Assembly (NCBI GenBank): GCA_018993265.1
Contig: JAGKSW010000068.1
Coordinates: 1 to 47,505, forward strand
DNA: 47,505 nucleotides
Direction of reading: 5' to 3'
DNA from: Nostoc sp. TH1S01
GTDB taxonomy: Bacteria > Cyanobacteriota > Cyanobacteriia > Cyanobacteriales > Nostocaceae
The position numbers and the translations under genes are program-made. Every line of letters starts with the position of its first letter. Positions within the stretch are counted from its first letter, which is position 1. Under the pieces are notes generated by a model that was not told where the DNA came from, searched no databases, and saw only the letters and a program-made list of their open reading frames with translations. Below are positions 8,302-45,459 of the stretch, in pieces.

Positions 8302-11300
8302 ATGCCATCACTTTATCCTGTGGATTTACCTACTTTAGAGCAGGTAATGGAATGTTACCCCTTAACTGTGTTACCGGATACTCTGTTCGTTGATGTAATT
8401 GCTCTCATGAATCCGGTAAGCAGCAGTACAGTAGATTCTGCATCTGATTTTAGTAGTTGTGTTTTAGTAGTTGAGGAAAAAAACTTAGTGGGTATATTCA
8501 CCCTACGTGATGTAGTCAGGCTCACTGGCGCAGGGGTAGATTTATCCAGGTTAAAGATTTCCGAGGTGATGACTCAGCCAGTCATTAGCTTGACGCGGGC
8601 TGCGGCTCAAAATGCTCTCACCGCCTTAGCTTTCATGCGCCAACATCACATTCGCCATTTGCCTGTGGTAGATGAGCAAGGGCAATTGTTAGGCTTGATT
8701 ACTCAAGACAGAATACGTCAGGTAATCCAACCAGCGCATCTGCTGAAACTGCGATGTGTGACAGAGATGATGGTAACGGAAATTATTCATGCACTGCCAA
8801 CTACATCTGTGTTGGAATTATCGCAAATAATGAGCGATCGCCGCATCAGTTGCGTCGTCATTGTCGCCCCACAAGAAACAAAGTTGATTCCGGTGGGGAT
8901 AATCACCGAAAAAGATATTCTCAAAGTCCATTTACAGGGAATAGATATCGCTCAAACCCAGGTGCAAGCCGTAATGAGTACCCCGGTATTAAGTATCAGT
9001 TCTAGTGAATCTTTGTTGACTGTTCATCAGTTAATGCAAGAGCGAGGGGTACGACGGTTAGTCGTGGTGGGTGAACAAGGACAACTGCAAGGACTAGTGA
9101 CACAAACCAATCTCCTGCAAGTGCTTGATCCTGTAGAAATAGTCAACGTCATCCAAGCCTTACAAGCCAAAGTTGCAGAGCAAACAGTTCAACTTCAGCA
9201 AAGCAACCAGCAGTTAGAAGCAGAAATCAAACAACGCCGCCAAGTTGAGGAATCACTACGCCAAACTCAACAAGAATTAGAGTTGCGGGTGGTGGAAAGG
9301 ACAGCCGAACTGGTGCAAGCTAATGCACGTCTACAACAGCGTGAACAGCAGTTGCAAGCCTTGTTTGATCACGCTTTGGATGCGATCCTGATTGCAGATG
9401 ATGAGGGACGTTATGTAGATGTCAATGCAGCAGCTTGCGAATTATTTGGTGTATCTAGAGAAGAACTTTTAGGTTCCACAATAGCGGATTTTGCCGCACC
9501 CGAATTTAATTTTACCAAAGCTTGGCAACAGTTCCGTGAACAAGAACAAATGTCGGGTGAGTTTCTATTGCATCGTCCCAACGGTACAGTACGAGCAACA
9601 GAATTTGCGGCGGTTGCCAATTTTATACCACATCGCCATCTTTCCATCATCCGGGATGTGAGCGAACGGCAACAAGCTGAAGTAAATCTGCAAAACAGCG
9701 AGCAACGGCTACAAATCGCACTCTCAGCCAGCAACACAGGTATTTGGGACTGGAATCTGCAAACTAATGAGGTGGTTTGGTCTGAGAGTATGTGTTCTCT
9801 ATTTGATCTCGATCCCCAGACATTCAACAACAGGTTTGAATCATTTTTAAATTTCATCCACCCTGAAGACCGGGAATTTGTGGAACAATCTCTGATGCAG
9901 TCTATTGATCAGCATACCATCTGTAATATCGAGTTTCGGGTAGTATGGCTGGATGGTACAGTACACTGGGCACATGGCAAAGGAAGCGTCTTCTACGATG
10001 AAACTGGTCAGCCACTCCGGATGATTGGGGTGCATCAGGACATTACAGAACGCCAACAAGCTAAGGCAAATCTGCAAAAAAGTGAGCAACGGCTAAAACT
10101 AGCACTCTGGGCTGGTAATACTGGCACTTGGGACTGGGATTTGCAAACCAATGAAGTTATCTGGTCTGATCATCTGTTTTCTTTATTTGGTTTAACCCCT
10201 GATACGTTTGATGTCAGCTATGAAAATTTTTTAAATCAAATTGTCCATCCTGAAGACCGCGAACGGCTACATCAATCAGTTTTGCGAGCCATTGACCAGC
10301 AAGTACCCCATGATCTTGAATTCCGGTTTCTTTCCCCAGATGGTACAGTTGGTTGGGCATTGTGTAAAGGTCAAGTATTATACAACAAAACCACTGGTGA
10401 GCCACTCCAGATGATTGGGGTGAATATGGATATCACTGAACAAAAGCAACTAGAATTCAACCTCCAACAATCAGAAGCGAAGCTCAGAGATATCCTTAAC
10501 AGTTCAGCAATCTCAATAGCTCGTTTGCGCCTGTTTGCTAATCTTGATTGGGAATATGATTACCAATCAGCAGGATGTGAAGGCATCTTTGGTTACACTC
10601 AACAAGAAATGATGGATCAGTATTGCTGGAGGTCACGGGTGTTTCCAGAAGACCTGGAAAATATTTTCATGCCTGCCTTAGAAAATTTGTTGGCGGAAAC
10701 CACGGTGACAATACAGTATCGTTTTTATCACAAGAATGGTAGTCTACGCTGGATTTCCGGGACTTTTACATCTCGATATGATGAAGTCGCAAATTGCTGG
10801 ATAGTCACAGTTGCGGACACAGACATCACTGAACGCAAACAAGCACAAGAGAAAATTCAAGAACAAGCAGCTTTAATTGATATCGCCACCGATGCTATTT
10901 TTGTCCGTGATTTAGAAAACCGCATTTTGTTCTGGAGTCAAGGGGCTGAATGCTTGTATGGCTGGACAGCAGAGGAAAGCTTGGGTAAAAAAGCCCATGA
11001 AATATTCTACAGAGAATCATTATCGCAACTCGAAGTAGGTTTACAAACTACTATCGAACAAGGTGCTTGGCAAGGTGAGTTAGAACAAGTCACTAAAAGT
11101 GGTAGAGAAATTATTGTTGCTAGTCGGTGGACACTGGTAAACAATCAATTTGGCGAACCCCAATCCATCTTAGTAGTTAACACCGACATCACCGAGAAAA
11201 AACAACTAGAGCAACAATTTTACCGCGCTCAAAGGTTGGAAAGTATAGGAACTCTCGCCAGTGGCATTGCCCACGACCTTAACAACGTCTTTGCTCCCAT

Positions 11301-12354
11301 TATGATGATTGCTCAACTGTTGCCTGCCAGATGCAAAAGTGTGGATGCACGGACTCAAGAACTGTTTAAAACTTTAGCAACTAGCTCAAAGCGTGGAGCT
11401 GATTTAGTGAAGCAAATTCTTACCTTTGCCCGTGGTACAGAAGGTCAACGCATCCTGCTGCAACCTGGACATTTGCTCAAAGAATTGGTCAAAGTCATCA
11501 AACAGACATTTCCGAAATCCATTGACATCCGTGCTGACATTCCCACAAATACACTCTGGATGGTCAAAGCCGATCCCACTCAAATAGAGCAAGTATTCAT
11601 GAATCTGGCAGTCAATGCCCGTGATGCCATGCCCAATGGTGGGATACTCAAAATCACTGCCGAAAATCGTATGATTGACACAACCTATGCCCGAATGCAC
11701 CTGGACGCTCATGCAGGGGACTACATTGTTGTCACTGTCTCAGATACCGGGACGGGAATTCCGCCAGAATTTTTGGAGCGGATATTTGATCCATTTTTTA
11801 CTACAAAAGAAGTTGGTAAAGGTACAGGGCTAGGACTATCAACGGTTTTAGGTATCGTCAAGAATCATGAAGGTTTTATCAACGTATTAAGTGAGGTAGG
11901 TAAAGGCACAGAATTTCAAGTGTTCTTACTCAGAGGAGAAGGCACAGCAACCGAGGCAGAAATGGAGGCAGAACTGCCCAGAGGTAACGGGGAGTTGATT
12001 TTGGTTGTAGATGATGAAGCCGTCGTCCAAAAAACCATACAGGAAACCCTAGAAGATTATAATTACAAAACCCTAGTGGCTAATGATGGTATTGAGGCGA
12101 TCGCTCTCTATGTTGAATATCAACCAGAAATCAGTGCCGTCTTGCTAGATATGCTCATGCCCAACATGGACGGATTAACCGCTATCCGCACTTTACGCAC
12201 CATAAACCCCAACGTCAAGATTATTGCCTCTAGTGGCTTACCCGCCAACGAGCAAAAAGCGATCACTGCTGGTGCAAACAAATTTCTCTTTAAGCCCTAC
12301 ACAACCACAGATTTATTGACTACTCTATCGGATGTAATCGGGATTAAAGAATAG
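8302..12354 (+). CDS. Hybrid sensor kinase: 4 CBS, coiled coil, 5 PAS, HisKA, HATPase, receiver
   Basis: 1350 residues with no membrane segment. Order: four CBS motifs (about 10-275) in two Bateman pairs, which in other proteins bind adenosine nucleotides; a Q/E-rich coiled coil (about 280-350); five PAS/PAC units (about 350-460, 470-590, 597-715, 728-850, 855-970), two of them sharing GNTGTWDW/SNTGIWDW starts; a dimerisation domain with phospho-acceptor H991 in IAHDLNN; an HATPase with N-box NLAVNARD and G-boxes DTGTGIPPEF and GKGTGLGLST (NtrB-like); and a C-terminal receiver with acceptor D1283 (LLDMLMP). The stacked PAS domains make the stimulus unpredictable. It shares its quad-CBS front end with the kinase at 20424-24077. 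No output regulator is adjacent. Confidence 0.93.
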   Translation: MPSLYPVDLPTLEQVMECYPLTVLPDTLFVDVIALMNPVSSSTVDSASDFSSCVLVVEEKNLVGIFTLRDVVRLTGAGVDLSRLKISEVMTQPVISLTRAAAQNALTALAFMRQHHIRHLPVVDEQGQLLGLITQDRIRQVIQPAHLLKLRCVTEMMVTEIIHALPTTSVLELSQIMSDRRISCVVIVAPQETKLIPVGIITEKDILKVHLQGIDIAQTQVQAVMSTPVLSISSSESLLTVHQLMQERGVRRLVVVGEQGQLQGLVTQTNLLQVLDPVEIVNVIQALQAKVAEQTVQLQQSNQQLEAEIKQRRQVEESLRQTQQELELRVVERTAELVQANARLQQREQQLQALFDHALDAILIADDEGRYVDVNAAACELFGVSREELLGSTIADFAAPEFNFTKAWQQFREQEQMSGEFLLHRPNGTVRATEFAAVANFIPHRHLSIIRDVSERQQAEVNLQNSEQRLQIALSASNTGIWDWNLQTNEVVWSESMCSLFDLDPQTFNNRFESFLNFIHPEDREFVEQSLMQSIDQHTICNIEFRVVWLDGTVHWAHGKGSVFYDETGQPLRMIGVHQDITERQQAKANLQKSEQRLKLALWAGNTGTWDWDLQTNEVIWSDHLFSLFGLTPDTFDVSYENFLNQIVHPEDRERLHQSVLRAIDQQVPHDLEFRFLSPDGTVGWALCKGQVLYNKTTGEPLQMIGVNMDITEQKQLEFNLQQSEAKLRDILNSSAISIARLRLFANLDWEYDYQSAGCEGIFGYTQQEMMDQYCWRSRVFPEDLENIFMPALENLLAETTVTIQYRFYHKNGSLRWISGTFTSRYDEVANCWIVTVADTDITERKQAQEKIQEQAALIDIATDAIFVRDLENRILFWSQGAECLYGWTAEESLGKKAHEIFYRESLSQLEVGLQTTIEQGAWQGELEQVTKSGREIIVASRWTLVNNQFGEPQSILVVNTDITEKKQLEQQFYRAQRLESIGTLASGIAHDLNNVFAPIMMIAQLLPARCKSVDARTQELFKTLATSSKRGADLVKQILTFARGTEGQRILLQPGHLLKELVKVIKQTFPKSIDIRADIPTNTLWMVKADPTQIEQVFMNLAVNARDAMPNGGILKITAENRMIDTTYARMHLDAHAGDYIVVTVSDTGTGIPPEFLERIFDPFFTTKEVGKGTGLGLSTVLGIVKNHEGFINVLSEVGKGTEFQVFLLRGEGTATEAEMEAELPRGNGELILVVDDEAVVQKTIQETLEDYNYKTLVANDGIEAIALYVEYQPEISAVLLDMLMPNMDGLTAIRTLRTINPNVKIIASSGLPANEQKAITAGANKFLFKPYTTTDLLTTLSDVIGIKE

Positions 12355-13981: not shown

Positions 13982-15433
13982 CAATACCTTAGCCAATTTA
14001 CGAGGGTTCAACGCCTGTGGAAAGGGGATGAATACGTCCCAGAGAAGTAAGCTTGGCAAAAATTTGCGCTAATAAAATAGGCTCAGGCTTTTGAGGAAGT
14101 ATTTTTAGCATTTCACGGACATATCGAAAACCACGGTAATAAGCTTTCAGGTCAATAATGCCAGAACCAGGATTATGTTTACGGAAATCAGCCAGAAGAT
14201 GATGGGATAAATTAACCATGAAGAATGCAAGATTAGCCGCATTAGTCACAGCAGTTTGGCTCAAATTCATAAAATCCTCTAAACCCCAAAACTGCTTGGC
14301 ATCACGAAAATTAAACTCGATTTGAAAACGTAGCTTGTAGTAGTCAATAATCTTATCAGCCTTCAAATCTAAGTCACTGGAAAATAAAATTACATGGCTA
14401 CGAGCCTGAGTTTTAAGATGAGTTTTGACCAAAATAACTACATTTAAAGCCTGGGCAAATTCTTTGTGAAGAAGAGTGGCTTGATAAATATCAGTTTGAA
14501 TTTCGTCCTCAATATCACTTTTGCACAAGTATTTGTTAGATAGATTACTATAGTCTAGTTTGTCACCGTACTTACGACGAGAACGTTTATTCGAGTCAGG
14601 ATTTTCATAAGGAATATATAATGCTGAATCATGGCGCAACTTGGAAATTATATGCAAGTTAACTTGTCGTGCCATCTGTAAAGCATTGTTGTTACCAAAG
14701 TGACTATCTACTACCAAGTACGTCAAGGGTATAAAGTTAGCCACTAGCTTGAATAGTGAGTTAATCATCTTTTTAATTAGCAATAGTTCAGAGGTTAATA
14801 TCACTTCAGTTTTCTTTTTATTTTTACTGCCTTTTGGTCGTCCCCTTCCACGTTTTTCTTTGGTTTTTACTTTTTTGATTGCCGAGGTACTATTTATTTG
14901 GACATTATTTTTGATTACCTGTTCTATTCCAATCGGAAATGACTCCCTTCTTTCTACGCTTACTAATGACAATACAAAGAAAGATAAACCATTAATTGGT
15001 TTACTAGACAGGCTAGAAAAAAATCTATCTACCCCGTAAGTTTGCTTACCCGATTTACTGACTACAACTTCATCTCCTGCAAGCAAGTACACATCATTTT
15101 CTCGCCACAAATATTTCCGAAAAAACAACCAAAACAATGTTGCCCAAGGTATGACTGTAGAAAAAAATCTCCCCATTGTCCGATAGCTACCGCCATCACC
15201 TGTCCAACGGGCAATTCCCAACATAGTGACTCGCCCGCTCATTGCTAACATCGCAATGATTATTTGGTTCAACTGACGCATCGTCGTAGCGTTTATCTGC
15301 GGCAAGAGGCATTGCAGGAGTGGTAAGATATCGGGCATGGGTTGATTGTGGCTTTTGAGTTGTCGTTTGGGAAGACAATAACTCTACTACATCAGCCCTC
15401 TCTCTTCACCCTCTGATTTTGGCTAAGGTATTG
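13982..15433 (-). mobile_element. Intact insertion sequence (IS4-superfamily), 1452 bp
   Basis: Both ends carry a perfect 15-bp inverted repeat, CAATACCTTAGCCAA (13982-13996), with its complement at 15419-15433. The flanking pentamer CTAAC is present on both sides (13977-13981 and 15434-15438) as a target-site duplication. One transposase gene fills the element and its stop abuts the left repeat. An intact frame, perfect ends and an exact duplication point to a recent, possibly still active, insertion. It landed in the spacer about 10 bp beyond the stop of the hypothetical gene at 15444 and interrupted no gene. Confidence 0.9.
13998..15338 (-). CDS. DDE transposase of the IS
   Basis: 446 residues. 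The DDE residues can be placed: the first D in LLAGDEVVVSK, the second in YLVVDSHFGNN, and E in the C-terminal YKLRFQIEFNFRDAKQ block, which follows the Y-R-E-K pattern of IS4-type transposases. A basic stretch (KTKEKRGRGRPKGSKNKKK) near residue 160 contains an AT-hook-like GRGRPKGS core. The frame is uninterrupted. The exact IS family needs a comparison I cannot run. Confidence 0.88.
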   Translation of the reverse strand: MPDILPLLQCLLPQINATTMRQLNQIIIAMLAMSGRVTMLGIARWTGDGGSYRTMGRFFSTVIPWATLFWLFFRKYLWRENDVYLLAGDEVVVSKSGKQTYGVDRFFSSLSSKPINGLSFFVLSLVSVERRESFPIGIEQVIKNNVQINSTSAIKKVKTKEKRGRGRPKGSKNKKKTEVILTSELLLIKKMINSLFKLVANFIPLTYLVVDSHFGNNNALQMARQVNLHIISKLRHDSALYIPYENPDSNKRSRRKYGDKLDYSNLSNKYLCKSDIEDEIQTDIYQATLLHKEFAQALNVVILVKTHLKTQARSHVILFSSDLDLKADKIIDYYKLRFQIEFNFRDAKQFWGLEDFMNLSQTAVTNAANLAFFMVNLSHHLLADFRKHNPGSGIIDLKAYYRGFRYVREMLKILPQKPEPILLAQIFAKLTSLGRIHPLSTGVEPS

Positions 15434-19878: not shown

Positions 19879-20427
19879 TCCTTTGTAGATTTACGCAAGT
19901 ATGACCAATCTTGGTTTGACCGTGGTCGTCCAGGCTGGTATGTTTTGTTGTGGTGGTTTGTACAGGCGATCTCCTTTCCCTTAACTCCACATCCTTTTAA
20001 TGGTTTGCGTTGTTTTCTGCTGCGACTATTCGGGGCGCGTATTGGTCAAGGCGTATTGGTTCGACCCACAGCCCGCTTCACTTATCCTTGGAAAGTTACC
20101 ATTGGTGACTATAGTTGGATTGGTGATGATGTGGTGTTATACAGCTTGGATAAAATTAATATCGGTGAACACTGCGTGATTTCCCAAAAAACCTACTTGT
20201 GTACAGGTAGCCACGATATTCAAGACCCAGCTTTTAAGTTAAAAACAGCGCCAATTACTATTAATAATGGGGTATGGGTGACAGCCGATTGCTTTGTTGG
20301 CCCTGGCGTAGAAATTGGTGCAAATGCTGTCATTGGCGCTCGCAGTACAGTGTTTGCCAATATACCTCCTGGACAAGTTTGTTGGGGTAGTCCTTGTAAA
20401 CCACAGTATCCCAGGTTGAAAAATTAA
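19864..20427 (+). CDS. WcaF/HpsU-like polysaccharide acetyltransferase
   Basis: 187 residues. After an N-terminal segment with SWFDRGRPGWYVLLWW comes a left-handed beta-helix of hexapeptide repeats (about 60-175): IGQGVLV, IGDYSWIGDDV, INIGEHCVI, VEIGANAVIGA. The histidine in CTGSHDI is the expected catalytic residue of WcaF-type acetyltransferases, which move acetyl from acetyl-CoA to exopolysaccharide sugars. I recall HpsU of the hormogonium polysaccharide system as belonging to this type, but that name is less certain. Its first codons (MTNNQ) are encoded by a heptamer repeat, so the true start could be shifted. Its stop overlaps by four bases the stop of the convergent kinase. Confidence 0.85.
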   Translation: MTNNQSFVDLRKYDQSWFDRGRPGWYVLLWWFVQAISFPLTPHPFNGLRCFLLRLFGARIGQGVLVRPTARFTYPWKVTIGDYSWIGDDVVLYSLDKINIGEHCVISQKTYLCTGSHDIQDPAFKLKTAPITINNGVWVTADCFVGPGVEIGANAVIGARSTVFANIPPGQVCWGSPCKPQYPRLKN

Positions 20428-23400
20428 ATTAACAACTTTTTGATGGTAGTTGCTAGTTCCTTGAGTTTTACAGGTTTACTCAGGTAGTCATTGGCTCCTG
20501 CTGCTAAACAACGTTCGCGATCGCCGCTCATCGCCAGCGCCGTGAGTGCCACAATGGGAACATTGGCAAATTGAGGATCTTGGCGAATTTGTTTGATAGC
20601 TTCTAAACCATCTATTTTTGGCATTTGAATATCCATTAAAATTAAGTTTGGATGGTGTGCTTTTGTAAAGTCAATGGCTTCTTGACCATTCATGGCCAGC
20701 AAAATGCGATAGCCTTTGGCTTCGAGATAGCTAGAAACTGTACTGATATTGGCTTCGTTATCTTCCGCCAACAAGATTAGGGGGTCAAGAGCTAGTTTTT
20801 CATCATTGCTGGAAAAGCCTAGTTCTGAATTACTAATTGCTTGAGTACCTGTGGTGATTGCCGGTGAGATGTCAGAAATAGGATGGCAAGGGAGATCAAT
20901 TGTAAAACAACTACCCATACCAAGTTCGCTAGTAAGTCCTACCCTACCACCGTGGATTTCGACAATTTGTTTCACTAATGTCAGTCCTAAGCCTGTGCCT
21001 GTGTATTGACGATTTAAGTCACTATCGATTTGTACAAAGGGTTGAAATAGTTTCTTGATATTCTCTGGGGAGATGCCAATCCCAGTATCTGTGACTGCAA
21101 AGTGCAAGAAGTTTGGCGGGGATGAAATTTGTGTAACTGCTAAGGTAATGCGTCCGCCATTGGGAGTGAATTTGACGGCATTATTCAGCAAGTTAAGTAA
21201 AACCTGACGAATGCGTCGTTCATCTACAAGTATTTCCGGTAAATTAAGCGGACATTTGAGTTCAACCTGAATCTGTTTTTGCAATGCCTGCTGTTTAATA
21301 AATGCCAAACTAGATTGGCATAGATGAGTCACAGAAATTAAGGTATAGTCGAGTTTTATCTGTCCAGATTCAATTTTGGCCACATCTAGGATGTCGTTGA
21401 TCAACTCCAACAAATGAGAGCCACTACGCTCAATTGTTTGTAATGCTTTGAGTTGCTGCTCATTAATAATTCCAAAAATTTCATCTTGTAGCCCTTCGGT
21501 CATACCTAAAATGGCATTCAGGGGAGTGCGAAGTTCATGGCTCATATTGGCCAAAAATTCATCCTTGAGACGGGTAGCGCGAGCCAGTTCTTGGTTGGAA
21601 ATTGCCAATTTGTGATTAGTCTCAGTGAGTTTTGCTTCTGTTTGCTGTCTTACCAATAATTCCGCCTGAATTTGTTCGTAGAGATTTGCTTGTTGAATGG
21701 CGATCGCCAACTGGTAGGAAAGTTGTTGGGTAAACTCAATCTCCGACTCTTGCCATTGGCGAGGCGCTGCACATTGATGGATACACAACAAACCCCACAA
21801 CTCATGACCACAAAGCAACGGTATGACCAAATTGCTCCGCACCTGAAACTGAGCGAGGATGTGACTGTGGCAAGTGGTCAACCCATTGTTATAAATATCA
21901 TCGACGGCAAAAAATTGGCCTTTAGCATAAAGTGATGAATAATTTTCTCCAAAGCAGTGGTCATGCACCCGAATTGCTACCACTGAAGTCAAACCTTCTT
22001 TAACCGATTCAGCCACAAATTCACCGTCATCAAAGTTAGATTCAGGATAAAACTTAAAAATGCCCACCCGATCAGCTTGAATTACTTGGCGAATTTCCTG
22101 ACAAGCAGTGTGAAAAATTGTTTGTAAGTCTAATGATTCCCGAATCCTTTGAGAAATTTCTCGCAGTAGTTTTTCCCGTTGTATTTGGAGATATATTGTT
22201 TTCTCGGCTTGTTTACGAGCGGTAATATCCCGAAAAATTCCCCGTGTAGCGATCGGCTGTCCATGTTGCAACTGACAATGAACATTCCCCTCGACAATAA
22301 TTTCTCTACCTTCTTTGGTCAGAAATCTGGTTTCGATACCTAAACATAAAGCGCCAGCAAACAAGCTTTGCATCGCTGTTTGGCAATGCACAAGTTCATC
22401 AGGATGAATAACTTGGAAAATAGATAACTGTACTAAGTCTGTATCGTCATATCCCAAAGTTTCTTTCCATGACCTATTGACAAATAAAATTTGACCATCA
22501 GGGGCAATGCTTTGAATTAAATCTGTGGCGTTGTCAAAGAAATCTCGCAGTTCTTCCTGCAATTTTTGGTGAGTAGTAGCTTGCTGAAGGGCGATCGCGA
22601 GATGCACCGATAACGCTTGTAACAGTTCTATTTCCTCTGGTTGCCACTCGCGGGCGTGTTGACTTTCGGTCGCATTGAGCAAACCCCATAGTTGATCACC
22701 ACGCAAAAGTGGCACTAAAATTTTGGCTCTTGTGTGCAGGCTAATCAGCATATTGCGGTGACACTCAGATATTTGGGTTGTGTAGACATCTGACACAACA
22801 CGAATTTGTCCCCAGCGGTCAATATCTGTGTCATATTGCTGAAAGCACGAGTCATGAATCTGTTCACCTACCAGTGATATTGGTGAGTTGCTAGACTCGG
22901 CAACCACAATCATTTGCCCATCGGCATCAAATTGCCAAATATTGACGCGATCGCAGCCTAATAAATGCCGTACCTTTTCAACTGTTGTGTTCAAAATAGT
23001 TTGCAAACTCAAGGATGAGCGAATTTGGGCGGTGATCTCTGCGATTAGTTTCTCTTGCCTGACCTTCGCTTGGAGGGCACTTGTCCGGAGGTCAACTTGT
23101 TGTTCTAATTCAACGGTGCGATTTTCTAGTATTGCTACATGTTCCGCTTCTAATTGCACCACCCTTTGTTCTAACATTGCCGCTAAATTGTATAGTTCCA
23201 AAGGGTTGAGAGCTTGTAGCAGATTTGTCTGGGTGACAATTCCCAATAGCTCACCTTGTTTTCCGGTGACAGCCAACCTTTTAATTAAGCGTTGTTCCAT
23301 GAGTTGCTGCACCACCAACAAAGAATCATCGGGTTTTACCGTAAAAATCGGCGAACTCATCACCATCTGAGCAAGACAATTTTGCAAGTTCAAGCCCAAT

Positions 23401-24077
23401 GCCTGAAACTGCACAATGTCACGCTCGGTGATAATTCCCAAGGGTAGTTGCAGCGGTTGATTTGGGCTACCAGCAGTTTCTACAATCATCACCGAACTAA
23501 TGCGATGTTTAGCCATAAGTTGGGCGATCGCTAGCATGGAACTATCTGGAGCGGCACAAATTACCTCAGTGATCATCACCTCCGAAACCAGACGTAACCG
23601 CAACAAATCCACCGGACGACAGGAATGGCGCAAACTTTCATGAGTTACCAGCCCTACCACCTGCTCCTGTTCGTTCAAAATGGGTATGTGGCGAATGTGG
23701 TACTGCTGGAGCAAATTCACAGCAGACAATATATCTGTAAAGTCAGACTCGTGCAGGGTGACGACTGGATAAATCATCACTTCCCGAATTGCCAAATGCT
23801 GCCAAGCATGATTCTCTGCACTCAGGCGTACCACATCCCTTTCCGTGAAGATACCTAGTAAGCATCCGTTTTCCACTACTAATACACAGCTAGAACGGGC
23901 TTCTAGATAAAGTTCATCCAGTTGCCCACTCAAATAAGTGGTGTCACAAATATTTCGTACACCGCTCATTTGGGTGATCACTTCTGTCACCGTCGTATCT
24001 GGTTCCACTATTAAAGGATGAGGAACGATCGCAGACTTTAGTTCTGCTGGTGTGAGTGCCGTGATGTGGTTCAACAT
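20424..24077 (-). CDS. Hybrid kinase: 4 CBS, GAF, PAS, GAF, HisKA, HATPase, receiver; candidate double DXCF cyanobacteriochrome
   Basis: 1217 residues, soluble. Order: four CBS motifs (about 15-290); coiled coil (300-340); GAF1 (about 345-500); PAS/PAC (507-622); GAF2 (about 635-798); coiled coil; HisKA with H847 in MSHELRTP; HATPase with N-box NLLNNAVKF and G-boxes DTGIGIS and TGTGLGLT; receiver with D1149 (LILMDI) and K1201. Both GAFs hold the two cysteines of DXCF cyanobacteriochromes: DSCF (C411) with CH (C439-H440), and DHCF (C708) with CH (C736-H737). The spacing is 28 residues in both, as in TePixJ. It may therefore bind two bilins and sense blue/green light. Many GAF domains without a bilin share parts of this pattern, so chromophore binding is inference. 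The front end is paralogous to the 8302 kinase. Confidence 0.93.
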   Translation of the reverse strand: MLNHITALTPAELKSAIVPHPLIVEPDTTVTEVITQMSGVRNICDTTYLSGQLDELYLEARSSCVLVVENGCLLGIFTERDVVRLSAENHAWQHLAIREVMIYPVVTLHESDFTDILSAVNLLQQYHIRHIPILNEQEQVVGLVTHESLRHSCRPVDLLRLRLVSEVMITEVICAAPDSSMLAIAQLMAKHRISSVMIVETAGSPNQPLQLPLGIITERDIVQFQALGLNLQNCLAQMVMSSPIFTVKPDDSLLVVQQLMEQRLIKRLAVTGKQGELLGIVTQTNLLQALNPLELYNLAAMLEQRVVQLEAEHVAILENRTVELEQQVDLRTSALQAKVRQEKLIAEITAQIRSSLSLQTILNTTVEKVRHLLGCDRVNIWQFDADGQMIVVAESSNSPISLVGEQIHDSCFQQYDTDIDRWGQIRVVSDVYTTQISECHRNMLISLHTRAKILVPLLRGDQLWGLLNATESQHAREWQPEEIELLQALSVHLAIALQQATTHQKLQEELRDFFDNATDLIQSIAPDGQILFVNRSWKETLGYDDTDLVQLSIFQVIHPDELVHCQTAMQSLFAGALCLGIETRFLTKEGREIIVEGNVHCQLQHGQPIATRGIFRDITARKQAEKTIYLQIQREKLLREISQRIRESLDLQTIFHTACQEIRQVIQADRVGIFKFYPESNFDDGEFVAESVKEGLTSVVAIRVHDHCFGENYSSLYAKGQFFAVDDIYNNGLTTCHSHILAQFQVRSNLVIPLLCGHELWGLLCIHQCAAPRQWQESEIEFTQQLSYQLAIAIQQANLYEQIQAELLVRQQTEAKLTETNHKLAISNQELARATRLKDEFLANMSHELRTPLNAILGMTEGLQDEIFGIINEQQLKALQTIERSGSHLLELINDILDVAKIESGQIKLDYTLISVTHLCQSSLAFIKQQALQKQIQVELKCPLNLPEILVDERRIRQVLLNLLNNAVKFTPNGGRITLAVTQISSPPNFLHFAVTDTGIGISPENIKKLFQPFVQIDSDLNRQYTGTGLGLTLVKQIVEIHGGRVGLTSELGMGSCFTIDLPCHPISDISPAITTGTQAISNSELGFSSNDEKLALDPLILLAEDNEANISTVSSYLEAKGYRILLAMNGQEAIDFTKAHHPNLILMDIQMPKIDGLEAIKQIRQDPQFANVPIVALTALAMSGDRERCLAAGANDYLSKPVKLKELATTIKKLLI

Positions 24078-44070: not shown

Positions 44071-45459
44071 ATGACCAAAACAGCAGTTAATCCATATCTT
44101 GATGGCAACTTTGCACCAGTTAGGGAAGAAATTACTGCGGAGAACCTGCAAGTAATTGGTAAACTACCACCGGAACTATCAGGGATGTTTTTGCGGAATG
44201 GCCCTAATCCTCAGTACTCACCCATTGGTCAATATCACTGGTTTGATGGAGATGGGATGCTGCACGGTGTCAGAATTAGCGAAGGTAAAGCTGTTTATCG
44301 CAACCGTTATGTGCAGACGCAAAAATGGCAAGCAGAACATGAAGCGGGTAAAGCGATATTAACTGGGTTGCTCGAACCACCACAGACAGATTATCCTCAT
44401 ATATCAGGGAATACTGCCAATACTGCCTTAGTTTGGCATGGTGGCCAGTTGTTAGCCGTCTGGGAAGCTGGTGCGCCTCATGCAATTCAAGTGCCTGAGT
44501 TAAAGACAATTGGCGAACACACTTATAATGGCAAACTTATTTCTCCTTTTACGGCACACCCAAAAGTAGATCCAATTACGGGTGAAATGGTGTTTTTTGG
44601 CTATTCGTTTACGCCCCCATATTTGCAATATGGCATAGTTTCCGCCGCTGGAGAGTTGTTATCAACTGTACCCATTGAAATTCCCGAACCTGTAATGATG
44701 CATGATTTTGCCATTACAGAAAACTATACAATTTTCATGGATTTACCCTTGAGCTTCAATCCAGCACGGATACAGCAGGGAAAACCAATGATCATGTTTG
44801 AGTGCGATCGCCCAAGTCGCTTTGGCATTCTCCCACGTCACGGCGATAACAGCAATATTCGCTGGTTTGAGAGTCCATCTTGCTACGTGTTTCATACCCT
44901 CAACGCCTATGAACAAGGTGATGAAGTAGTACTAATAGCCTGTCGGATGAGTTCTACTTCTGTGTTGGGTTTTAATGGCGTTGATGATCCCGATGCTAAT
45001 ATTCCCCGACTACATCAATGGCGGTTTAACCTGAAGACTGGGGCTGTATCTGAGTCCAGGTTAGATGACATTGCTGGAGAATTTCCCCGCATCAACGAAA
45101 ACTTGTTGGGACGACAAACTCGCTATGGCTACGTTAATAAAAGCGCACCTACTCCTGTGCCTTTGTTTGAAGGTGTAATAAAATACGACTTTCATCATGG
45201 TACCGCCCAAATCAATGTATTTGGGCAAGGGCGTTATGGCGGTGAGTCTGTATTTGTAGCGCGTCCCAATGGAACAACTGAAGATGATGGTTGGTTAATG
45301 ACTTTTGTCCACGATGAGACAGCCAATACTTCTGAATTGTTGGTGATGAATGCTCAAGATATTACTGGTGAGCCTGTAGCACGAGTGTTAATTCCCCAAC
45401 GTGTACCTTATGGGTTTCATGCTGCTTGGGTGACTGAGAAACAGTTGCAAGGGTTTTAG
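44071..45459 (+). CDS. Carotenoid cleavage oxygenase
   Basis: 462 residues, seven-bladed propeller family. It opens with NPYLDGNFAPVREE and LPPELSGMFLRNGPNP, then WFDGDGMLHGV. Four histidine ligands of the catalytic iron can be placed: H163 (FTAHPKVD), H211 (MMHDFA), H275 (VFHTLNA) and H450 (GFHAAW). These enzymes cleave carotenoid or apocarotenoid double bonds with O2 to give apocarotenals; the sequence style is that of the Nostoc CCD/NSC enzymes, soluble and without a signal peptide. Exact bond specificity is not readable. Confidence 0.94.
   Translation: MTKTAVNPYLDGNFAPVREEITAENLQVIGKLPPELSGMFLRNGPNPQYSPIGQYHWFDGDGMLHGVRISEGKAVYRNRYVQTQKWQAEHEAGKAILTGLLEPPQTDYPHISGNTANTALVWHGGQLLAVWEAGAPHAIQVPELKTIGEHTYNGKLISPFTAHPKVDPITGEMVFFGYSFTPPYLQYGIVSAAGELLSTVPIEIPEPVMMHDFAITENYTIFMDLPLSFNPARIQQGKPMIMFECDRPSRFGILPRHGDNSNIRWFESPSCYVFHTLNAYEQGDEVVLIACRMSSTSVLGFNGVDDPDANIPRLHQWRFNLKTGAVSESRLDDIAGEFPRINENLLGRQTRYGYVNKSAPTPVPLFEGVIKYDFHHGTAQINVFGQGRYGGESVFVARPNGTTEDDGWLMTFVHDETANTSELLVMNAQDITGEPVARVLIPQRVPYGFHAAWVTEKQLQGF

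Follow-up and report, generated by a model that had tools for sequence, protein, structure and literature searches.

The window analysed here, a stretch of 47,505 nucleotides from Nostoc sp. TH1S01 (contig JAGKSW010000068.1), contains a gene at 20424-24077 on the reverse strand that very probably encodes a light-sensing hybrid histidine kinase with two blue-type sensors and an energy-sensor-like front, judging from its sequence. Our preferred reading, to which we assign a probability of about 0.62, is that the product is a soluble kinase of the same kind as Anacy_2551 of Anabaena cylindrica PCC 7122, which has lost in frame a far-red GAF domain (GAF3) and one further GAF domain (GAFx), has kept two DXCF-type GAF domains behind a tetrad of CBS motifs, and would work by the mechanism proposed below. 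This reading is based on the domains, the motifs and their conservation, the absence of two domains that are carried by syntenic orthologues in three genomes of the genus (G098, G195, and G198; hereafter the long orthologues), and the presence of genes for enzymes that make phycocyanobilin; from these we infer light sensing, the colours of the photocycles, bilin and nucleotide binding, their coupling, the phosphorelay, and the direction of the domain loss.

Domain Organization of the Kinase

The kinase is a single open reading frame (ORF) of 1217 amino acids (aa), in which the Pfam matches, each above its cut-off, follow the order CBSx4-GAF1-PAS-GAF2-HisKA-HATPase_c-Response_reg. The hallmarks of a hybrid histidine kinase (H847 in HisKA, the HATPase domain, and D1149 in the receiver) were found by Pfam and inspection, and the kinase residues are intact. 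The original prediction, which was made from the sequence alone, was accurate in the coordinates, strand, ORF, domains, and motifs that it gave for this gene, as checked by the ORF listing, Pfam, and sequence reading. The features are as follows, all on the reverse strand.

20424-24077, reverse: hybrid histidine kinase, CBS4-GAF1-PAS-GAF2-HisKA-HATPase-receiver (ORF and Pfam)
23178-24077, reverse: four CBS motifs, residues 1-300 (four Pfam CBS stretches, motif conservation, Foldseek)
22569-23045, reverse: GAF1, DXCF type, residues 345-503 (Pfam, PDB match, alignment, predicted model)
22845-22847, reverse: codon of C411, second cysteine, in DSCF (sequence reading)
22761-22763, reverse: codon of C439, canonical cysteine, in Cys-His (sequence reading)
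22542-22553, reverse: junction 1, exit helix of GAF1 fused to PAS, the site of GAFx (comparison with the long orthologues)
22212-22556, reverse: PAS domain, residues 508-622 (Pfam)
21684-22181, reverse: GAF2, DXCF type, residues 633-798 (Pfam, PDB match, alignment)
21954-21956, reverse: codon of C708, second cysteine, in DHCF (sequence reading)
21870-21872, reverse: codon of C736, canonical cysteine, in Cys-His (sequence reading)
21630-21728, reverse: junction 2, exit linker of GAF2 fused to the former exit linker of GAF3 (comparison with the long orthologues)
21363-21566, reverse: HisKA, residues 838-905, with phospho-acceptor H847 read from SHELRTPLN (Pfam and motif reading)
20886-21224, reverse: HATPase_c, residues 952-1064 (Pfam)
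20442-20777, reverse: receiver domain, residues 1101-1212, with phospho-acceptor D1149 read from the sequence (Pfam and inspection)

Two GAF Domains with Paired Cysteines

GAF1 has DSCF at residues 409-412 (C411, with D409 kept) and Cys-His at 439-440 (C439-H440), and GAF2 has DHCF at 706-709 (D706, C708) and Cys-His at 736-737 (C736-H737). The cysteines are 28 residues apart in both C411/C439 and C708/C736, and both pairs align onto C494 and C522/H523 of TePixJ; the alignment thus confirms the earlier claim that the spacing in both domains equals that of C494/C522 in TePixJ. These residues are well conserved in related proteins: among 59 first GAFs of relatives the residue is kept in 55 at the C494 position, 57 at C522, 53 at H523, and 54 at D492, and the corresponding numbers in 20 GAF2 rows (those with >45% identity to the window GAF2, out of 23) are 19, 18, 17, and 19.

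The best PDB match of both domains is the bilin-binding GAF 6OAP (E 1.5e-34 for GAF1 and 9.3e-43 for GAF2), and TePixJ, RcaE, and NpR6012g4 are also among the matches. The predicted GAF1 model, built from 43 sequences, has a mean predicted local distance difference test score of 86.6; the best 50 of its 382 Foldseek matches (E<=0.001) are all cyanobacteriochromes, cyanobacteriochrome-derived fluorescent proteins, or phytochromes, and the match to TePixJ 4FOF has an E value of 5.9e-14. The cysteine pair is not rare in this genome: of the 52 GAF rows gathered from it, 40 are 150 aa or longer, and 18 of these 40 combine Cys-His at the first position with a Cys at the second. A Fisher test of the co-occurrence of the two cysteines gave p 0.024, which is descriptive only as the rows are related. 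Chance occurrence of the pairs is ruled out, because they fall on alignment columns of the bilin site and are found again in relatives.

A light-independent role of the GAFs, with the cysteine pairs acting as redox or metal sensors, would fit the CBS and PAS partners of a metabolic sensor and the few relatives that retain just one cysteine of the pair. We nevertheless consider it very improbable, in view of the joint conservation of the attachment-site Cys-His, the DXCF aspartate, and the fold, of the location of the pair at the bilin-holding site of TePixJ, and of the third GAF of the long orthologues, which shares 67-68% identity with a far-red GAF proven to bind bilin.

TePixJ, a blue/green cyanobacteriochrome of the DXCF type, shares with GAF1 and GAF2 the 28-residue cysteine spacing, Asp492, and His523, but is named a chemotaxis protein, whereas the output of the window protein is a kinase. 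TePixJ as the nearest lineage of GAF1 and GAF2 was unsupported in a quick tree, where it groups with three tandem GAFs (DPCF/CH; locus L070) on contig C234 of the same genome, to which it is nearest, and not with GAF1 and GAF2; this tree carries SH-aLRT (approximate likelihood-ratio) support only, with 58 of 146 branches open and several long branches, so that its deep order is unsure.

The chromophore should be available in the host, as far as genes can tell, because the genome encodes PcyA, its one ferredoxin-dependent bilin reductase (NCBIfam 380.9 bits against a cut-off of 206), and three heme oxygenases.

Probable Loss of Two GAF Domains Relative to Syntenic Orthologues

In a survey of the genus the protein was matched at 1e-140 in 6 of 11 genomes, its own included, and orthologues with collinear flanks were found in 3 of the 10 other genomes, those that carry the long orthologues. 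Within the compared part of the flanks, collinearity extends from about 17.5 to 25.8 kb in the window. The ORFs of the long orthologues (1609-1621 codons) share with the window gene the neighbours, CBS4, GAF1 (DPCF/CH), PAS, GAF2 (DHCF/CH), histidine kinase, and receiver, but carry in addition GAFx between GAF1 and PAS and a far-red-type GAF3 between GAF2 and HisKA; the window copy has neither, and a far-red GAF3 with Cys-Leu ahead of the kinase is absent from its ORF. The GAFx segment missing at junction 1 amounts to about 190 aa of the long orthologues. Both junctions are in frame and lie in linkers at domain boundaries. Between the two G098 stretches at junction 1, 9 of 12 bases agree, which is a weak near-repeat. 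The two G098 linkers at junction 2 share 67 of 99 bases, including an uninterrupted identical run of 11, and the likely switch point is at about 21634-21650; the idea of clear direct repeats at the junctions was therefore dropped.

No GAF3 was found elsewhere in the genome at 1e-50, and relocation within the genome was rejected, as the best other GAF is only 38% identical. The best same-genome match of GAFx (53%) lies in another protein. Loss of GAF3 in the window lineage is the simpler reading, because GAF3 also occurs in distant family members. Such domain changes recur, as genome G049 has one form that lacks GAF3 and is joined differently, and another copy that has GAF3 and lacks GAF2.

Could the window copy be an artefact of assembly or a gene in decay? 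Two domains are indeed absent relative to three syntenic orthologues, and pocket residues are changed (see below). However, the cuts keep the reading frame and fall at domain boundaries, the residues of the kinase and receiver are intact, and the ratio of non-synonymous to synonymous substitution rates (dN/dS) against the long orthologues is 0.05-0.49, below 0.5 in every module. Further, the near-repeats of the G098 linkers, with exact runs of 4 and 11 bases, would not readily collapse an assembly, no close GAF3 remains elsewhere in the genome, and G049 also has a GAF3-less form with its own junction. We give this explanation very little credence.

The DNA of the kinase and receiver part (20428-21728) is 92% identical to that of G098 and about 79% to those of G195 and G198, while the front part is about 83-86% identical to all three alike, and this unevenness is a sign of intragenic recombination.

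Comparison with Anacy_2551 and Other Described Proteins

The third GAF of Anacy_2551 (Anacy_2551g3, PDB 6UV8) is a far-red domain at 728 nm (PMC11480761). The 6UV8 sequence matches genome G118, within the ORF of locus L134, at 100% identity across 175 of its 176 residues, so that this genome is presumably A. cylindrica PCC 7122 or a close strain. This ORF of 1277 codons reads CBS4-GAF1 (DPCI/CY)-PAS-GAF2 (NKCF/CH)-GAF3-histidine kinase, with no receiver; 6UV8 is also the closest match of the GAF3 of another locus (L032; E 3.5e-77). Anacy_2551 thus resembles the window protein in having CBS4-GAF1-PAS-GAF2 and later a kinase, but it alone has a far-red GAF3 and a kinase end of another type without a receiver, and its cysteine motifs DPCI/CY and NKCF/CH contrast with DSCF/CH and DHCF/CH in the window protein. 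As read from the sequences, a protein already published for its third GAF has the same order through GAF2. That no described receptor has this exact order, as the original prediction put it, is therefore true in a narrow sense, in that Anacy_2551 continues with GAF3 after GAF2, and the idea that the window protein is unique in its domain order was rejected, as the front of Anacy_2551 has the identical order.

All2699 of Nostoc 7120 is, like the window protein, a multi-GAF bilin kinase, with three GAFs, but these are red/far-red and red/orange, and the term CBS is absent from the main text of its description (PMC6696110). SPLC1_S082010 of Arthrospira is likewise a multi-sensor histidine kinase with a CBS domain, and it is phosphorylated at S210 inside that domain (PMC7291507); the likeness is by description, not by sequence, and the protein is not termed a photoreceptor in the part of that paper available. 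CBS is also listed in a table of kinase sensing domains of thermophilic cyanobacteria (PMC9953108). In a partial literature search, which turned up reviews, tables of domains, and unrelated matches and had the main far-red papers outside its coverage, we found no work treating CBS together with cyanobacteriochromes or bilins in one protein.

The CBS Tetrad

The motif G-x-x-T-E-R-D is present at residues 75-81 in CBS1 (GIFTERD) and 214-220 in CBS3 (GIITERD), and G-h-h-T-x-x-D is the ribose motif of adenosine-nucleotide-binding CBS domains, expected in one or both motifs of a pair. In 65 CBS4 proteins, that of the window included, the aspartate is conserved in 64 (CBS1) and 65 (CBS3) and the threonine in 65 and 63, respectively, whereas in CBS2 and CBS4 the aspartate is mostly replaced by Ser, Thr, or Asn. 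The PDB sequence matches of this part are CBS proteins, including MJ1225 and CBS-CP12, and the top Foldseek matches of its predicted model are four-CBS proteins, including adenylate sensors of the AMPK-gamma type; good superposition of the model was limited to single CBS pairs (2EF7, template modelling score [TM] 0.80 and 0.83 by target). Sensing of adenosine nucleotides by the CBS part is plausible.

A Family of CBS4 Proteins in Cyanobacteria

Of 118 genomes sampled from the family, 23 matched residues 1-804 at E<=1e-100, and of 339 sampled from the phylum, 57 matched CBS4-GAF1 at E<=1e-70, some by the CBS part only; both counts include the window's own genome. The 65 distinct CBS4 proteins, gathered with queries that held GAF1 or the whole front, form a set biased accordingly. 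A GAF lies 41-50 residues downstream of the CBS part in 60 of them. We defined a strict cysteine test as Asp, Glu, or Asn-x-Cys plus a Cys exactly 28 residues further on; it was passed by 49 of these 60 first GAFs (window included, in a set that leans towards GAF1), and by 27 of 29 in CBS4 kinases with a GAF directly after the CBS part. All four cysteines are present in 14 of the 19 distinct CBS4 kinases with GAF1 and a GAF2-like second GAF, window included, and in 14 of 16 when the second GAF scores at least 180 bits to the window GAF2.

As outputs, 33 of the 65 proteins have a kinase, 12 have GGDEF/EAL, and in 20 neither was found or the locus is cut; 22 of the 33 kinases have a GAF3-type domain. 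One relative (L104, genome G003) is split in two, with open frames that are 618 and 1154 codons long. The CBS4-DXCF front also serves a second output in Nostoc sp. TH1S01 itself, as contig C133 encodes a paralogue (L098:2400-5705, forward strand) of the form CBS4-GAF (DHCF/CH)-PAS-GGDEF-EAL, which is 50% identical over residues 2-629 and has an output of the cyclic di-GMP type instead of a kinase.

A second CBS4 kinase of 1350 aa lies about 8 kb away in the window (8302-12354, forward strand), with the architecture CBS4-PAS repeats-histidine kinase-receiver and no GAF family among its Pfam matches. The genes neighbouring 20424-24077 (glycosyltransferases, a hexapeptide transferase, and a second kinase) are syntenic and give no clear functional hint. 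A DDE transposase is encoded at 13998-15338 (reverse strand), and an RPE65-family protein of 462 aa at 44071-45459 (forward strand).

The Bilin Pockets and the Case for Two Photosensors

The positions of Tyr503, Arg507, and His553 in TePixJ provide propionate and D-ring contacts of the bilin. GAF2 keeps Tyr503 and His553 and has Gln for Arg507; GAF1 has Asp for Tyr503, Gln for Arg507, and Thr for His553. The alignment of pocket residues, suggested earlier as a check, thus finds all of them kept in GAF2 bar one arginine and only part of them in GAF1. The claim of two DXCF-type GAFs holds for the Cys, Asp, and His residues, the predicted fold of GAF1, and the conservation, and is qualified by the partly altered pocket of GAF1.

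Several observations weigh against our preferred reading. The Asp of GAF1 stands where 54 of 59 first GAFs of relatives have Tyr, and its Gln where they have Arg in 33 and Gln in 12, while the Gln of GAF2 stands where all 20 compared rows have Arg or Lys. At the 553 position just 9 of 59 in the first-GAF clade have His; 44 of them have Ser, Thr, or Val, so the Thr of GAF1 is of the usual type. The strict cysteine test is failed by 11 of the 60 first GAFs, the second GAFs of five relatives (L031, L103, L112, L142, and L039) lack the cysteine pair, and in Anacy_2551 itself the motifs read CY (GAF1) and NKCF (GAF2). The dN/dS of the window GAF1 is 0.18-0.49, compared with 0.14 and 0.19 in two pairs of long orthologues, and that of GAF2 is 0.12-0.17, compared with 0.09 and 0.09. 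The near-repeat at junction 1 is weak, its longest exact run being 4 bases. Finally, the predicted template modelling score of the CBS model is 0.64, and its global fit to four-CBS structures is poor (TM 0.33-0.41 by query among the matches listed), because of which, the fit to AMPK gamma being poor, we make no claim on the packing of the tetrad.

In an alternative reading, only GAF2 works as a photoreceptor, while GAF1, with poor or no bilin binding, sits between CBS and PAS to dimerise the protein or pass on the signal. The altered GAF1 positions, a dN/dS against the long orthologues that is the highest among CBS, GAF1, PAS, and GAF2, and the loss of one cysteine in some related first GAFs argue for it, but C411, C439, H440, and D409 are intact, the strict pair is the rule in the first GAFs of CBS4 kinases (the 27 of 29 above), and the predicted fold of GAF1 is cyanobacteriochrome-like. 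We regard this alternative as possible but rather doubtful. We hold with good confidence that GAF2 is a probable bilin-binding domain; GAF1 is likely to bind bilin as well, with a partly changed pocket and with noticeably less confidence. These ratings are set by the pocket changes and the first GAFs that fail the strict test.

Proposed Mechanism

In the mechanism that goes with our preferred reading, phycocyanobilin would be attached at C736 in GAF2 and C439 in GAF1 and may be isomerised to phycoviolobilin, as in TePixJ. Reversible addition of C708 and C411 to C10 of the bilin would let each GAF toggle between a dark state that absorbs violet/blue light and a photoproduct that absorbs at longer wavelength. 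The signal would travel via helical linkers to HisKA and would alter autophosphorylation at H847 and transfer to D1149 of the receiver, and the CBS tetrad would set the gain by binding adenosine nucleotides at its sites in CBS1 and CBS3.

Implications for the Family

The window protein is probably a shortened variant of a known photoreceptor type from which the far-red GAF is gone. One kinase family unites blue-type GAFs, far-red-type GAFs, and a CBS tetrad, and in the window copy the far-red sensor has probably been naturally removed and the rest spared, with intact syntenic orthologues for comparison; the window copy and its orthologues are thus a ready test of how bilin domains and a nucleotide sensor combine in one output. 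More tentatively, the CBS4 part, the linker of 41-50 residues, and the dual-cysteine GAF might constitute a conserved cyanobacterial module for the coincidence of light and energy, fronting both two-component kinases and GGDEF-EAL enzymes, in which the colour range of the kinases would be retuned by in-frame loss and gain of GAFs, and the window protein may be a blue/far-red receptor turned blue-only.

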